From: Candidatus Altimarinota bacterium
Lineage (GTDB): Bacteria; Patescibacteriota; Gracilibacteria; BD1-5; UBA6164
Length of the DNA: 48,827 bases
NCBI GenBank assembly: GCA_002749055.1
Contig: PDTW01000028.1
Location: 1-48,827 of the forward strand
Direction: 5' to 3'
Shown here one piece after another: positions 40,659 through 48,616 of this stretch; the first letter of the stretch is position 1, and every line of letters begins with the position of its first letter. The position numbers were made by a program, and so were the translations under genes. Below the pieces are notes generated by a model. The model searched no databases and had not been told where the DNA came from. It was given only the letters and a program-made list of their open reading frames with translations.

Positions 40659-42563
40659 ATGTTTGATTTTAGTTCTAAAATATTAGATTTTTGAAAAAAG
40701 AATATCATAATAAATAGAAACATAAGTTTAGATGAGTGATTAGAATGTTTTTTATTAATTAGTTCTTCTGACCTAACATTAGCAGACAATGTATTAAATA
40801 AAATTTTAGATTTAATAATTGATAAAATTTGAAAAGAAGATTCTTATTCGGATTTTTCTTTGGCACTTCAAAATATAAACTCTTTTTTGAAACAATGGAA
40901 TAAAGACCTTGAGAAGGAGTTAAAAATAAATATAATTATATGACTTCTTGATGAAAATACTTTTTTATTCTCTGAAATATGAAAAGTATCATGTTATCTA
41001 ATAAAAAATAACAATGAACTTTTAGAAGTAACTGACAAAAAGTATAATAAAAAACAGTTTTGATTTATCTCTTCAGGTGAATTAAGTGAGTGAGAAATAA
41101 TAGTAATGTGAACTCATAAGTTATTAAATTATCTTTCAAATAGTGATTTTTTAGACTGAGCTAGATTAGATACTTTAGAGGCCTTTAATGAAAATATAGT
41201 TGATATACTTAATTCTGAAATAATTGAAAAAAATCTTTGAATTACTTCTATTAAGTATAAATCAAATTGAGTTTTAAATAATAAATCAAGTAAATTTTTA
41301 TTTATTAAAGAATTTTTCATAAAACTTTTAGATAATAATTTTTCAAAGAAGATAATTGCATCATATTTTGTTTTGAAAGACAAAATAAGTAAAAAATCAA
41401 AAACTATAAAAAATATTATTTTTATTTTATGAATAATTATTTCTTTCTTTTTGTTGTATTCTATTATTTTGAATATAGTTTGAAATAATAGTTACATGGA
41501 AAAAAAGGTAGAATACACTAAAGATTTAGAAAAAGCAAAATCATATGTTGTTGTTGCTAGTGAAAATATTAACAATCCAGATTTATTTAATTTGAATATC
41601 AATAATGCTGAGAAAATTATAGAAACTATAAAAAAAGAAAAACTTTTTTTAAATGATCTTAATAAGATGAAAGATGATATAAGTATATTAAAAAAACAGT
41701 TTAATTGAGTAGAGATATTTGAAGAAAATTCTAACAATAAAGTTTTTGTTGGAGAGATTCCTTGAGCAGTAAAAATACTTAAAAAAGATAAAAAATTATA
41801 TGTTATTGGTAAAAATTGAGTTTATCTTTTAGATCAAGAGAACCTTAAAATGCAACCATATATATTTGAGAAATTAGATATTGATGAAGAGTATTTTATA
41901 GATGCTACAGTTTTGGTAAGTGATATAATCTTATTAACTAATAAATCAAAAATAGTTAAATTTAATAAATGATATTTTAATTTTGTTGATGTAAAGTGAC
42001 AAAAAGTTTGGCAAAATTCAAAAAACATTGAATCATATTGAAGAAATATTTATTTGTTATGACAAGAAAATAATCAAATATATAAACATTCTAAATCATG
42101 AGCTAGATTCAATTCTGCTTTAAATTATTTAAAAGATGAAGATGTAAAGAATATCTGAAATATAAGATCTATTGCTATTGATTGATGAATATATATACTG
42201 AAAAATGATTTAAGTATGTTGAAGTTTTTTGCTTCTCCAAAGTATAGAATAGAAAAACTAATTCTTAATAAACTTCCCAAAAATTATAATGTAGAAGTTG
42301 ATAATAATATAGAAATAAAAACAAGAGCAAACTTGAATTATGTTTATATGCTTTTGAATAATAAAATATTTATTTTTAAACCAAACAGGAAAGTATATAA
42401 TGATGTCAAAAGTCTTATGTATTTATGACAAATTGAGTGAAAAAGTTATAAAATTATAGATTTTTACCCAAGTCATGACTGAGAGATAATTGTTTTAAAT
42501 GAATCATGATTATATAAACTGAATTTTGATGTAGATGAAGATGATAAAATAATCCTTAGATAA
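40659..42563 (+). CDS. Unknown single-pass membrane protein, phosphatase-like N domain and propeller-like C domain (634 aa)
   Basis: Residues 1-235 contain FSLALQNINSFLKQWNKDLE then NIIIGLLDENTFLFSEIGKV SCYLIKNNN, reminiscent of a PPM/PP2C-like phosphatase fold, but no metal-binding Asp-Gly motif is visible, so it may be inactive. A single TM helix (about residues 250-270, IFILGIIISFFLLYSIILNI) is followed by a coiled coil and a beta-rich domain with repeated strands such as KLYVIGKNGVYLLDQENLK. Large, probably surface-exposed. No assigned function. Confidence 0.6.
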
Positions 42564-42591
42564 TTAAATAATTTAAAATTAACAAAAAAAT

Positions 42592-43362
42592 ATGTGAAGA
42601 GGTCCAGTTGTAGCAAAAAGGAGAGATGCAGTTAATGCTGTTAAGTGAAAAGTTTTTTCACTTCATGCAAAGTTGATATCAATAGCAGCACAAAAATGAG
42701 GAGATCCTGATTCTAATCCATCATTAGCATCAGCAATATATAAGGCTAAAAAAGATTGAGTTCCAAATGATAATATTGAAAGATCAATAAAAAAATGAAC
42801 AGGAGAAGATAAATCATGAAATCAAATTGTAGAAGTAGTTTATGAATGATATGCTTCTTGATGAACAGCCGTTATGGTTTCAGTTTTGACTGACAATAAA
42901 AATAGAACAGTTTCATCTATAAGACATATTTTTTCTAAATATTGATGAAATATGTGAGAATCTTGAGCAGTGTCATGGATGTTTCATAGGAAATGAGTTA
43001 TATTTATTAGTTCCGAAAAATATGATTATGAAAAGATAGAAGAGCTAGTATTTGAAACAAAAGCTGAAGATATAATTAAAGAAGATTCTTATATAAAAAT
43101 AATAACTCAAACTTGAGATTTGCATGAAGTTGAGAAATTCTTTGAAGATAAATGAATAGAAATAATAGAATCAAAATTAGACTACATCCCTGATACAGAA
43201 GTAGAAATTACAGAGTTTGATAAAGCATTAAAATTTAAAAAAATGATAGAAGCATTTGAAGAAGATGAAGATGTACATATAGTTTCTACAAATGAAATAA
43301 TATCAAAAGATTTAGAAAAGCAAGTAGATGATTTTATTGAAAAAAATAAATTTAGAACTTAA
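42592..43362 (+). CDS. yebC: YebC/PmpR family (TACO1) translation or transcription factor (256 aa)
   Basis: MGRGPVVAKRRDAVNAVKGK is a variant of the usual MAGHSKWxxIKHKK start; the body is standard: AAQKGGDPDSNPSLASAIYK AKKDGVPNDNIERSIKKGTG, VVYEGYASGGTAVMVSVLTD and GNMGESGAVSWMF. The family has been linked to transcription control and, more recently, to relief of ribosome stalling at polyproline. It ends 39 bases before the direct repeat that bounds the mobile island. Confidence 0.93.
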
Positions 43363-43400
43363 AAGATTCCAATTTCACTCTATTTCTTTCTCGAATAAAA

Positions 43401-43425
43401 TAATTATGAAAAATAGCAGCATATG
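43401..43425 (+). repeat. 25-bp direct repeat, left copy (edge of the island)
   Basis: Exactly the same 25 bases (starting TAATTATGAAAAATAG, ending CAGCATATG) recur at 46413-46437 in the same orientation, 3012 bases away. The left copy ends precisely where the insertion sequence begins. The other bases of the 43363-43425 gap show no gene. Confidence 0.9.
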
Positions 43426-43510
43426 GGCATAATCTAAATTTTAGTGGAGAAAAAAAATAAATATAATATGTTAGAGATTAAATTTTAACATATTTTTAAA
43501 ATAAAAAATT

Positions 43511-43885
43511 ATGGAAAATATAGCCCAAGAATTATTAGAATTATTTTTACCATCAGAAATAGATTGGAAAAGATATAAACTGTCAAAAGTAGAAGAAATA
43601 AAAGATGAAAATATTTCACCATTTGTATGAAGACTAGAATTTCATCTAGAAGAATTAAATATAATACCAAATAATGAAGAATACAAATGAAAACAAATAA
43701 TATCTAAATGATTCTATCCATCAAAAAAAATACATGATTTTGCAGTGAGAGATAAATTATCAACATTAGTAGTTAAGAGAAGAAAATGGCAAGAAAAAGA
43801 ATGATGAAAAATAATAAATTCAGAAATAAATTGTAACTATCCCTGAACACAAACATCAAAAAGTTTGTTGTCTTTTTTAAAATAA
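43511..43885 (+). CDS. ISAon1-type transposase N-terminal ORF (124 aa)
   Basis: MENIAQELLELFLPSEIDWK followed by FHLEELNIIPNNEEYKGKQI and ISKGFYPSKKIHDFAVRDKL matches the separately encoded N-terminal part of ISAon1-like ISL3 transposases. It includes the basic strand STLVVKRRKWQEKEGGK. The frame ends TTA-AAA-TAA; the catalytic ORF is in the +1 frame and is open from 43881, so the two parts are either separate proteins or joined by frameshifting at that site. Confidence 0.85.
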
Positions 43886-43916
43886 ACTCATTGAACAATG
43901 AGATATAAGTAATTCA

Positions 43917-44954
43917 ATGCTTTCAACTTTGTACGGAATAAATGAAAAAACTTTATCATATTATTTCATAAATGTAATATCAGATTTTGCGTTAGAAAAA
44001 GAAAAAGAAGAAAGTGATGAAAAACTTTTTATGTGAAAAAGAAATACCTGCAGACCCCAATATATATCTAAGTATTCAAAACTAAAAAAAGAATGATACT
44101 TTAATTCTTCTAAACTTTGAAAAAATCTTTGTGTAGATGAAAAAAATATAAATTGAAAAGTATATACAATATTTTCAAATCCAGATTTAAAACAAGGTTT
44201 AGTATGAATAATACCTTGAGTAAAATCTAAGAATGTTACAGAATTGGTAAGAAAGAAATCAAAATTTAAAGACAGATTAATAGTAAAAGAAGTAGCTTTA
44301 GATATGGCTAGAAATATGGAATGGATAGCAAGAGAATTATTTCCTCAAGCAAGGCAAGTAGTGGATAGATTTCATGTAATGAAAAATGTATTATGAGATA
44401 TACAAGCTGTAAGAATTAGATTAAAAACAGGAATAATAAAAGAAGAGTTAGATTTAGAAACTAAATCAAAAATAGAGAGAATAAAATATTCTCCTAAAGA
44501 GTATAAATTAAATAACAATCTTTCTGAAACAAAAAAAGAACTGATAACTAGAGTTAGATATCAACTCTTTAAAAGAAAAAAAGACTGGAATGATAATCAG
44601 AAAGATAGATGGAAGATTATTAAAAAGTTAAAAAATCTGGAAGAACTAGTTTTTTCTTATGAAGTAGTATCAGATTTATTTGATATATTTGATGAAAAAA
44701 AAGGAGCATTATCTTTTCAGCAATGGTTTAGCAAAATATCTAAAAGAGAAAATATTATTGAAATGCAAAATTCTTGAAGGATAGTACAAAACCATTTAGT
44801 GAGAATTTTAGCTTATTTTGATAATAAATTTACTAATGCTTTTGCCGAATCTTTAAATTCTAGAATCAAAAGATTTATTAGTAATTTAAGATGATTTAAA
44901 AATCAGGATTATATGATTTACAGGATTATTAGAAAATTTGATTGAAATTTTTAA
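43917..44954 (+). CDS. ISL3-family DDE transposase catalytic ORF (345 aa)
   Basis: Starts MLSTLYGINEKTLSYYFINV; the DDE triad candidates are the Asp in LCVDEKNINGK, the Asp in VALDMARNMEWIARELFPQA and the Glu in NAFAESLNSRIKRFISNLRG. RQVVDRFHVMKNVLGDIQAV is the conserved block of the IS204/IS1001/IS1096/IS1165 group. The frame is intact, so the enzyme may be active. It is in the +1 frame relative to the first ORF, with an ATG 32 bases after that stop codon; fusion by frameshifting is an alternative. Confidence 0.9.
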
Positions 44955-44993
44955 TCCACCAAAATTTAGATTATGCCAAAAAAACATTTAAAA

Positions 44994-45021
44994 TTGACAA
45001 CAATACACATATGTCTACAAT
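44994..45021 (+). promoter_or_regulatory. Consensus sigma-70 promoter of the foreign cassette
   Basis: TTGACA (44994-44999), 16 bases, TACAAT (45016-45021). It lies 16 bases inside the DNA that follows the IS right end and 52 bases before the ATG. A short inverted repeat (GAGTTTAAATTCCTAGACTC, 45027-45046) follows in the leader. Confidence 0.65.
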
Positions 45022-45062
45022 GTTCCTGAGTTTAAATTCCTAGACTCAAAAACCAAAACAAA

Positions 45063-45068
45063 AGGAGG
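45063..45068 (+). promoter_or_regulatory. Perfect Shine-Dalgarno AGGAGG
   Basis: AGGAGG ends 4 bases before the ATG at 45073. This is the only canonical Shine-Dalgarno sequence I found before a gene in the window; host genes have A/T-rich leaders. It supports the start codon and a foreign origin. Confidence 0.8.
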
Positions 45069-45072
45069 ACTT

Positions 45073-45399
45073 ATGTCCCAGTTTATAAAACTATTAGCAT
45101 CAGCTTTTTTGTCTATATCTATATTTAGCTCTGTGAATGCTGCCAGTCTAGTTCCAGGTAGTGCTATTTGCGAAGCTTATTCAGACCATGCTTATGCACA
45201 GGTGCATAGTGACTTTATTCCAGTAAAGATTCACTTTGTTATCTTCAGACCAGCTACTAACTCTGTTAGTACTATCAAGTGGGGTGGTTGGAATCAAATA
45301 GTTACATTTAGTAGCTATGGTGTTTCAATTAGTCCAGGAGATAAACTGCTAATCTGGGATGATAACTACACAATGTATGAAGACATCACTTGTAGTTAA
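45073..45399 (+). CDS. Secreted small protein of apparent standard-code origin (108 aa)
   Basis: Residues 1-23 are a clear signal peptide (MSQFIKLLASAFLSISIFSS, then VNA before ASL). The mature 85-residue protein is beta-rich in look, with Trp in IKWGGWNQIV and LLIWDDNYTMYED and two Cys (AICEAY and the C-terminal ITCS) that could form a disulfide. No family recognised. Its five glycines are GGT or GGA with no TGA, while its neighbours use mainly TGA; hand count gives 120 G+C of 327 (37%). With its own promoter, AGGAGG and GC-stem terminator it looks like an intact gene from a bacterium with the standard code. Confidence 0.8.
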   Translation: MSQFIKLLASAFLSISIFSSVNAASLVPGSAICEAYSDHAYAQVHSDFIPVKIHFVIFRPATNSVSTIKWGGWNQIVTFSSYGVSISPGDKLLIWDDNYTMYEDITCS

Positions 45400-45418
45400 T
45401 CTTTCCTAAAGTAACAAG

Positions 45419-45445
45419 CAACCCTTTTTAAAGGGTTGTTTTTAT
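45419..45445 (+). terminator. GC-stem terminator of the foreign cassette
   Basis: CAACCCTTT, loop TT, AAAGGGTTG, then TTTTTATT: a 9-bp stem with five G/C pairs at most, quite unlike the A/T-only terminators of the host genes. The stop codon of the convergent minus-strand gene (TAA, 45428-45430) lies in the loop and stem. Confidence 0.9.
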
Positions 45446-46255
45446 TGGGAAACACCTGATATCTATATTTTTTAAAAAGTTAATTTTAGTAGCTTTATCT
45501 TCTTTTAAAAAACTATCAATAATATTTTTTACATAATAATTTGTAAAAAGTTCTTTTGATGGTACTGGCAAATACACACTTGGCAATGTATCATATATAA
45601 GTATTGAATATAGATATGCTTTTTTATAATTCTCTATAATTGAGAAGTTAATGATGAGAGGTATATTTAATCTTTTATTAATATTACTATTTTGGATTAT
45701 GTATTCATTTTTATCAGTTTTGCAGTATTTATTCTCAACAGCATCTGTTTCTGAATACCTAAATGACATAATTTCATTTCAATTATTATAAGAAAAAATA
45801 TCAGGTTGAACATATGGAACTTGAGGTGAACTTAGTATAAAAATATATGTAAATATTATGATTCACCATGTAGTTAGAAAGTTTTTACTAACTTTTGGTA
45901 ATTTCAATAATAGATATGTGGAGTATAAAAATATTATAATAAAAAGAAAAATTATAAGAAAATGACTTATACTTTCTGCATATAGTTGATAATTTTGTAA
46001 TACAAATAAAAATGAAAATAACACTACAAAAACTATTCAATTAGCTCTATATAGAGAATTCTTTTTAGATTTAATTGCAAGAATAGAGTATATTATTGTT
46101 GAACATATCAATAAAACAATATTGAGTCATATTATTATGATAGAAGAGTTTTCATGATAAGGCATATCTTGCACTATAAGTATATAGATTAATATTGCTA
46201 TATATATTCAATATTTTTTCAGAAAATTTAATATATTTATTTTAACCATACTCAT
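45428..46255 (-). CDS. Unknown polytopic membrane protein with extracytoplasmic C domain (275 aa)
   Basis: About five hydrophobic segments (for example IYIAILIYILIV, IGLNIVLLICSTIIYSI, VVLFSFLFVLQN, HFLIIFLFIIIFLYSTYL, WGIIIFTYIFILSS) followed by about 120 residues rich in Tyr, Asn and Ile. Uses TGA for Gly at least five times, so it is a host-code gene. Its last eight or so codons (ending PIKTTL) come from the terminator of the foreign cassette, so the original 3' end has probably been replaced. Function unknown. Confidence 0.65.
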
Positions 46256-46542
46256 TATTATTATTGTAATACAACAGTTATTATATCATATAATATATTG
46301 ATAATGCAAATTTAACTGAATTTTTCTCGTCCATTGGGGAAAATACTCAAAAAATTAAGCTGTTTTTCACTTTTATAATCATCGATTTAGCAAAGCAATT
46401 TAACATCTCTCCTAATTATGAAAAATAGCAGCATATGTTATGAACTCACACAAAAAAATGAAAAAATCTTGCTAAATTAAATTTTTTATATACAATTCTT
46501 TAGCTTATAAATATAATATATATCAATTATTAAAAAATAACA
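46256..46542. other. Intergenic region before rplY with right direct repeat
   Basis: This 287-base gap holds the right copy of the 25-bp direct repeat (46413-46437) and a 9-bp inverted repeat ATTTAGCAA / TTGCTAAAT (46385-46393 and 46471-46479) that encloses it. The sequence just left of the repeat (CAATTTAACATCTCTCC) loosely resembles that left of the first copy. No convincing ORF. The rplY leader (46480-46542) is A/T-rich. Confidence 0.6.
46413..46437 (+). repeat. 25-bp direct repeat, right copy (edge of the island)
   Basis: Identical to 43401-43425. After the repeat the sequence continues TTATGAACTC, whereas the left copy is followed by the IS end. If the two copies recombined, the island of about 3.0 kb would be removed and yebC would lie next to rplY. 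Confidence 0.9.
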
Positions 46543-47169
46543 ATGAAAAAACTAGAATTAAATGCTGAAATAAGGGAAAAGGGGGAAGATTTAAAAAAGC
46601 TAAGAGCTTCAAAAATAATTCCAGCTGTAGTTTATTGAAATAATCAAGAACCTATATCTTTTAAGATGAATAACTCAGATTTTTTAAGAACTTTTAGAGT
46701 ATCTTGAGAAAGTCATATAATTAATTTAAAAATTTGAAAAAAAACTATTGAAGTTTTGGTTCATCAAATTCAAAAAGATCCTGTTACATGAGCTTTTTTA
46801 CATGTAGATTTTTATGCAATTACTAAAGGTGAGAAACTTACTACTAAAATTCATCTTAATTTTGTTTGAGAATCTGAAGCTGCAAAACTTTGAGCTATTA
46901 TCGAGGAAAATATGAAAGAAATTGAAGTTAAGTGTTTACCAAAAGATTTGGTAGATAGTTTTGATGTTGATATATCTGTTTTAAAAGAATTTGGTGATTC
47001 TGTAAAAGTTTCTGATTTAAACATTAGTGATGCTTACCAAGTTAATGCACCTGCTGATGAAATAGTAATAAGTTCTTCTAAACCAGCTAAGGCAGAAGAT
47101 TTAGATGCTCCAGTTGTTGCACCTGAAGTTGAGTGAGAAGAGGCTAATGCTAGTGAAGAAACAAAATAA
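46543..47169 (+). CDS. rplY: 50S ribosomal protein L25/TL5/CTC family (208 aa)
   Basis: LELNAEIREKGEDLKKLRAS KIIPAVVYGNN is the L25 domain that binds 5S rRNA; VLVHQIQKDPVTGAFLHVDF YAI and the CTC-type C-terminal beta domain (residues 95-185) follow, ending in an Ala/Glu-rich acidic tail. The long form is a general-stress protein (Ctc) in some bacteria. Followed at once by a strong terminator. Confidence 0.95.
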
Positions 47170-47185
47170 AAAAATTTACAAACAT

Positions 47186-47224
47186 AGACTTATCATTAAA
47201 CTAATGGTAAGTCTTTTATTTTTT
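47186..47224 (+). terminator. Intrinsic terminator of rplY
   Basis: AGACTTATCATTA, a 3-base loop, TAATGGTAAGTCT (13-bp stem with one G-T pair) followed by TTTATTTTTT. Confidence 0.85.
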
Positions 47225-47238
47225 ATACAATTAAATTT

Positions 47239-47568
47239 ATGATTATAAAAATATTTTGAAAGGAAGATGTAACTAAAAAGTTATTTACAAGTGTTCAAAA
47301 CTCTATTGAAGATTTATGACTAACAGATTTTATACCTTTAGAAAAAGTTACAAAAGATGACGAATTAAAAAAAGAACTTGGTATAAAAAAAGAACCTGCT
47401 TTAATAATAGAAGAAGAATCTATAGATTTTAAAGATGTTATTTTTGAATGAGTAACTTTAAGTGATGAGGAAATTAAGTCTATGCTTATAAGTATAGTAG
47501 GTTGATGAGAATCTTGAGGATGAAGTTGTTGAACAGATGGTTCATGCTGAACTTGTAGTGCTTGTTAA
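47239..47568 (+). CDS. Thioredoxin-fold-like protein with Cys-rich tail (109 aa)
   Basis: MIIKIFGKEDVTKKLFTSVQ, then DFIPLEKVTKDDELKKELGI and KKEPALIIEEESIDFKDVIF suggests a small thioredoxin fold like the redox-active disulfide protein 2 group (pattern ... V..Palvi....). There is no CxxC in the N-terminal half where the active site normally lies. Instead the C terminus, GGGESGGGSCGTDGSCGTCSAC, has four Cys, nearly all other residues being TGA-encoded Gly, Ser and Thr. It may be a redox or metal-binding protein. Confidence 0.55.
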
Positions 47569-47587
47569 TAATTTAATAAAAAAATAA

Positions 47588-48616
47588 ATGAATAATCTTT
47601 TTTATATATGTCTTTTTATATTATGAATGATGTTTTGAAGTTTCGCTTCAGTACTCATCTATAGACTAAAATCTTGAGAAAAATGAATTTTAACTTGAAG
47701 AAGCCATTGTAATAGTTGTTGACATGTACTTAATTATTTAGATTTAATACCTATTTTTTCTTATTTATTTAATTTTTGAAAATGCAAATATTGTAAGAAA
47801 AAAGTTGCTAGTGTTTATCCACTTTTAGAAATTAGTTCATGATTATTATATTTACTTATATGATATTTTTTGGTAGATTTTTCTCTTCTTTTATCTTGAA
47901 ATATCCTTGAAATAACTAGGTTATTATTTTTTCTTATTATATGACTTTTGAGTATTATTTATACTTTTTATGATGTGTTATTCCTTGAAATTCATGAAAA
48001 AGTACTATTAGTTTGAGTAATCTTTAGTCTAATAATTTTGTCTCTACAAACACTCTTTCCATCATTTCAGGTAATATCCTTTCTGCCTATTATGTCCGAA
48101 AGTTTAAGTACTTGATTATTATCTATATTATTGTCATTTATTATTGTGTGACTTCTTTATACAATAATGTTAAAATGATTGAAAGAAATATACGATATTA
48201 TAATTATAGTGTGAATAATTTTATCATTACTATGATTTAAATATTTTTTTAATGTTGAATTGTCAAATATTCCAATTTTTAGTTGAATTATATGATCATT
48301 ATGATTATTTACATTTTTCTTTTTACAAATATTAGTTTCTCGTTGAGTTTGGATGTGATGAGGGGATTTAAGAATAGCTATACTTATAGGTAGTATTTTA
48401 TGAATTCCTTTGACATTTGCTTGAGGAATGATTACATATTTAGTTTGAAGTGTTATATGAATTTCTCTTATAATTTATTCAAGACTAAAAAAGCTAAAAA
48501 ATTGAACAAAAATGGATACCCAAATACCTTTTTGACCCTTTTTGGCAATAGGCTTTTTCCTGACTCTTTTTTATCAAAATGAGATTTTAAATTTTATAGA
48601 AATATATTTTTGATAA
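47588..48616 (+). CDS. pilD: Prepilin peptidase / N-methyltransferase, A24 family (342 aa)
   Basis: Residues 1-90 show the methyltransferase part: MNNLFYICLFILGMMFGSFA SVLIYRLKSGEKG, with two zinc-binding Cys pairs CNSC and CKYC (residues 41 and 66). The peptidase Asp residues are in FYDVLFLEIHEKVLL (about residue 128) and GGGDLRIAILIG (about residue 257), matching the aspartyl protease pair of the family; eight TM helices are likely. It would process the pseudopilins encoded at 25841 and elsewhere. Some TGA codons are in the Gly-Gly-Gly-Asp motif. Confidence 0.93.

Follow-up and report, generated by a model that had tools for sequence, protein, structure and literature searches.

The 48,827-nt window, which is the whole stretch of DNA that was analysed, contains a segment of about 480 bp beside an ISL3-family insertion sequence (IS), and the composition and codon use of this segment are outside the range of its TGA=glycine host. 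The segment, termed here the cassette, probably represents a standard-code transcription unit that was acquired recently and encodes a small secreted protein; the IS was probably involved in its arrival or its trimming (Table 1). A preliminary description had proposed a foreign, standard-code origin, and this part of its interpretation is well supported by composition, codon use, and the Shine-Dalgarno (SD) sequence as compared with the 16S tails of the family. It did not notice the IS next to the cassette, the island flanked by conserved genes, or the altered anti-SD sequence.

Signals and composition of the cassette

The expression signals named in the preliminary description are present. 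The promoter, TTGACA-16-TACAAT, which had been called a consensus promoter, agrees with the consensus at 11 of 12 positions; four matches of this quality, including the cassette's own, occur in the 12.8-kb stretch scanned, and the promoter alone is therefore weak evidence. The "perfect AGGAGG" forms part of a 7-nt AAGGAGG, four bases 5' of the ATG. The open reading frame (ORF) was borne out, with 108 codons, a TAA stop, five GGN glycines, and no TGA, and its G+C content, estimated earlier at about 37% by hand count, was computed as 36.7%. By inspection and hydropathy, the N-terminus of the protein looks like a Sec signal peptide, as had been suggested. The GC-stem terminator was recovered as a hairpin with a T-run; the terminator scan listed this hairpin on the minus strand only, and the plus-strand T-run was read from the sequence. 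Two Rfam matches over the terminator were below the gathering score and were rejected as a plain hairpin. With regard to an integron attC site, the strong one after the ORF among the inverted repeats listed is the terminator.

Table 1. Coordinates of the cassette, the insertion sequence, and the surrounding island in the window.
Feature	Position	Strand	Basis or remark
yebC, conserved left flank	42592..43362	+	Pfam PF01709, PF20772; synteny
25-nt direct repeat, left copy	43401..43425	+	ends one base before IS
ISL3-family insertion sequence, 1552 bp	43426..44977	+	PF01610, E 3.4e-37
IS terminal inverted repeats	43426-43455 and 44948-44977		inverted-repeat search
Transposase ORF1, 124 aa	43511..43885	+	6 TGA read as Gly
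Transposase ORF2 (DDE domain), 345 aa	43917..44954	+	10 TGA read as Gly
Putative foreign cassette	44978..45457	+	G+C profile, codon use; left edge uncertain within 16 nt, right within about 20 nt
Promoter TTGACA-16-TACAAT	44994..45021	+	11/12 consensus matches
8-bp hairpin, likely 5' end of mRNA	45027..45048	+	RNA fold z = -2.0, 8/200 shuffles as stable
Shine-Dalgarno AAGGAGG, 4 nt before ATG	45062..45068	+	sequence; AAGGAGG-4-ATG = 45062-45075
108-aa ORF	45073..45399	+	residues 1-23 signal-peptide-like; mature part modelled as beta-sandwich
Intrinsic terminator, hairpin + T-run	45416..45446	+	RNA fold z = -4.2, 0/200 shuffles as stable
Orphan ORF, table 25 (6 TGA)	45428..46309	-	putative membrane protein by inspection
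25-nt direct repeat, right copy	46413..46437	+	within dispersed intergenic repeat
rplY (ribosomal protein L25-like; name presumed), conserved right flank	46543..47169	+	synteny

The cassette was compared with 161 further ORFs, each of 90 aa or more, drawn from the window and from eight stretches of 20 kb each, which together make up about 209 kb of the 1.06-Mb assembly. As claimed earlier, it is exceptional relative to host ORFs, being an outlier in TGA use, G+C content, and the 7-nt SD sequence. TGA accounts for 3219 of 3970 glycine codons (81%) in the control ORFs, in agreement with the earlier statement that the neighbours encode most glycines by TGA; a single control ORF lacks TGA, and it has fewer than four GGN codons. 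With GGN at 19%, the chance of observing five GGN codons out of five is, by arithmetic, about 2.4e-4. The highest G+C content of any control ORF is 0.304, compared with 0.367 for the cassette ORF. The codon-usage comparison that had been proposed gave a log-likelihood per codon of -1.24 for the cassette vs. a median of -0.70; two control ORFs scored below the cassette, and both were judged on inspection to be antisense shadows of real genes and were kept among the 161. Among 4105 windows of 400 bp, the cassette ranks first in G+C content, narrowly (0.3625; the next, at 0.355, falls within an ORF on contig C2), and G+C changes abruptly at both of its sides. A tRNA with the anticodon UCA was found in the host, and the 751 GGN codons of the control ORFs imply matching tRNAs, so the host also reads GGN.

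No 7-nt SD match was found among the 161 control ORFs, and SD-like matches in their leaders are roughly as scarce as in shuffled leaders, apart from two minor exceptions. Six-nt matches of the family type occur in four control ORFs (about 0.35 expected), and six-nt canonical matches occur in two (0.25 expected). SD-like leaders in the host are thus rare rather than absent. The pattern AAGGAGG-N(3-9)-ATG has five occurrences in the assembly as a whole, compared with four for the reversed control; only two of the five sites start an ORF of more than 25 aa, namely the cassette and one ORF on contig C26.

The 16S gene of the window genome itself was not found in its assembly. It was found in seven of nine family genomes asked (L079-L085), all seven tails end TCTCCTTA / ...GACTATCTCCTTA, and the anti-SD core in each is TCTCC in place of CCTCC. 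The cassette leader has a predicted pairing energy of -11.6 kcal/mol with an E. coli-type CCTCC tail vs. -8.7 kcal/mol with the family tail, and it ranks first of 162 leaders with either tail. According to these predictions, the cassette SD would fit a foreign ribosome best, yet remain usable with a family-type tail. Passages of one paper (PMC10783764) list two SR1 genomes (Absconditabacteria) as SD-scarce and without CCUCC.

The insertion sequence and the island between yebC and rplY

The IS shares with ISL3 elements the DDE domain (DDE_Tnp_ISL3, 129 bits vs. a cut-off of 23), terminal inverted repeats, and a length of about 1.5 kb, but differs in having a transposase over two frames, no target duplication, and the cassette lying outside its terminal repeats. 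Its ORFs contain 16 in-frame TGA codons, which indicates that the IS works only under the recoded code. A relative from another genus of the same family (G003) contains five partial matches to the IS at 82-86% DNA identity, one sharing its left end and four its right end, and these common termini fix the IS boundaries. The -35 box of the cassette begins 16 bp beyond the IS terminus, and the 16 nt between them could be host DNA. The possibility that the cassette is a passenger gene within the IS was rejected, given that it lies outside the terminal repeats and that no third terminus (fewer than 5/17 mismatches) was found in 42000-48000. The target duplication of the ISL3 family is 8 bp in length. 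No 8-bp duplication surrounds this copy, its flanks AGCATATG and AAAAAAAC being different, which suggests that one flank was probably altered after insertion and that the copy is rearranged. The 25-nt direct repeat, whose two copies are close to either end of the island, was also considered as a target duplication and was rejected, because its right copy sits in an intact dispersed repeat.

The gene to the right of the island, which we take to be rplY, had a match in 58 of 60 genomes; of the 30 loci obtained, one is that of the window itself, and the loci of 29 relatives were thus compared. The yebC gene is visible in 11 of these, always on the strand opposite rplY, so that yebC of the window is inverted relative to all 11. 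Seven loci have a homologue of the upstream 649-aa gene adjoining rplY, and 11 have neither this gene nor yebC. The gap between yebC and rplY is 3,180 bp in the window; among the 11 relatives' loci, it is about 1.2 kb in one and 167-383 bp in the other 10. Given the wider gap and the turned yebC, the cassette forms a lineage-specific, rearranged island of 3.2 kb together with the IS and the orphan ORF. Judged from the loci compared, the cassette is absent from relatives at this conserved locus. The orphan ORF reads in frame into the cassette terminator, and its original 3' end seems to have been displaced; it has no Pfam match above cut-off and no homologue in the 59 relatives.

Predicted protein and origin of the cassette

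The preliminary description had held that homologues in other table-25 genomes using TGA for these glycines would speak against a foreign origin; no homologue of the 108-aa protein was found in 59 relatives (E up to 0.001) or in 352 other genomes of the class (E up to 0.01), two sets that overlap. In the phylum, 19 of 378 other genomes gave a match at E up to 0.1, and the best two were inspected and rejected: one (2.7e-5) runs antisense to a ribosomal-protein operon and is interrupted by a stop, and the other (0.003) spans a short segment of a large repeat-containing protein. The remaining 17 have E values of 0.014 to 0.09. Pfam and PHROGs contained no family for the protein up to E 10, FN3/Ig-like profiles included, and PADLOC, PDB sequences, plasmid records (by protein), E. 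coli genomes (by DNA), and two genome-contig scans, a method that needs a shared 8-residue peptide, yielded nothing convincing. The protein had no match in 50,697 phage records, DNA searches of phages and plasmids gave only short chance matches, and two viral-contig scans gave nothing. The immediate neighbours tested with Pfam and PHROGs include no phage gene.

A single-sequence structure model of the protein (pLDDT 71, pTM 0.61) suggests that its mature part is a small Ig/FN3-like beta-sandwich; of five models, two scored near 70 and three at 36-41. The likeness to fibronectin type III and Ig-like domains thus lies in the modelled fold, without a profile match. A BFVD fold search returned no match with E up to 0.001, the best (2.6e-3) being to a section of a 727-aa protein from an archaeal virus, with 18% identity.

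These data are best explained by the horizontal and fairly recent acquisition of a whole standard-code unit comprising promoter, leader, canonical SD, ORF, and terminator. Such a unit would be usable unaltered, as it has no TGA, ends in TAA, contains GGN codons that the host reads, and has an AAGGAG core that is predicted to pair with a host-type anti-SD. The foreign DNA would most likely already have been within a code-25 cell when the IS acted, and insertion of the IS, or a deletion or rearrangement next to it, would then have left only the cassette unit. Because the IS has no target duplication, its role is one that we infer. The product would probably consist of one Sec-exported domain with an Ig/FN3-like beta-sandwich fold, and it might serve as a binding or surface protein. 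A more elaborate version, in which the unaltered unit works despite the changed code and anti-SD, was trimmed and fixed by an IS that functions only under code 25, and supplies a secreted binding protein that is used against, or was taken from, a partner bacterium, is improbable when taken as a whole.

An assembly chimera, in which a piece of roughly 480 bp from another organism was joined at the IS end and at the terminator, is unlikely, although it would account for the sharp G+C shift on either side, the position of the left edge at the end of a repeat, where assemblers err, and the lack of a homologue in the 59 relatives. It would require two independent joins around one complete transcription unit, and the near-coincidence of the foreign stretch with exactly such a unit makes a random chimeric fragment unlikely. 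The junction lies no more than 16 nt from the terminus of a code-25-dependent IS, which points to a code-25 cell. A mistaken exit from the IS during assembly would still place the cassette beside an element that needs this code. A search of the assembly with 44950-45460 showed no recurrence of the gene; 25 nt at the IS end were all that recurred. Contig C26 (3.7 kb; L048) of the same metagenome-assembled genome bears on this question, as it looks standard-code and makes foreign DNA in the bin likely; its G+C content of 25.5% is unlike that of the cassette, so that by composition it is not the cassette source. This contig, which contains four long frames with 22 GGN codons and a single TGA, and in which an AbiP2-like reverse transcriptase carries that TGA at its probable gene end together with an AAGGAGG leader, probably represents contamination or a defence island.

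Delivery by a code-11-compatible phage instead of a partner bacterium, as a moron-like unit, would be a route within the horizontal acquisition described above, and its probability overlaps with that of the acquisition; it is quite improbable. The architecture, with its own promoter and terminator, is moron-like, and passages of PMC10746230 report that 34 of 38 predicted Gracilibacteria phages over 20 kb are free of in-frame TGA, so that their ORFs, like that of the cassette, are readable under both codes. On the other hand, the same passages describe prophages in these hosts as dense in in-frame TGA, and the searches above provided neither a phage homologue nor a phage neighbour for the cassette. 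A native or old lineage gene that by chance is low in TGA and has a strong SD is very improbable. In several relatives, rplY contains at most one TGA, which indicates that TGA use varies within the group, but only one of the 161 control ORFs lacks TGA, none reaches the G+C content of the cassette, and the class search found no homologue.

Horizontal acquisition thus remains the preferred explanation, and, since published work already documents inward transfer for this group, to which the window was assigned by its genetic code, the cassette adds a clear case to a class already known. The general argument made earlier, that the code change does not bar the inward transfer of such DNA, is already in print (PMC10746230; PMC8080830). 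Passages on Vampirococcus lugosii (Absconditabacteria) report 126 horizontally acquired genes, which likewise entered a TGA=Gly lineage (PMC8080830). Those genes are described there as found by phylogeny and as having homologues, whereas the cassette is a whole unit that shows no amelioration and has no known homologue. Passages of one study (PMC6851277) describe a Gracilibacterium that co-occurs with Colwellia. A literature search, judged by listings and passages, returned nothing resembling this cassette. Whether the reassignment of TGA to glycine isolates the lineage from incoming genes is debated, and the cassette offers one clean, testable case; the altered 16S tail would be a second barrier for an incoming unit to cross. 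If real, the cassette would be a natural reporter of foreign gene expression in these uncultured cells.

Transposase frame change and repeated sequences

A +1 frame change at TTTTTTAAAATA(A/G) divides the ISL3 transposase in two (43858-43917), and matching sites are present in L035, L036, and L037. The frame change was computed for the window and L037, and the L035 and L036 sites were read by eye. It was seen in four genera, with protein identity down to 44%, and has the appearance of programmed frameshifting or transcript slippage. Contig C17 (L002 1494-1523) carries a solo ISL3-type terminal repeat that is not accompanied by a transposase ORF. The dispersed intergenic repeat to the left of rplY (46385-46450) is about 65 nt long (AGCAAAG..TTATGAACTCACAC), is also found in L004, L005, L006, and L007, and recurs across the genome at 71-91% identity.
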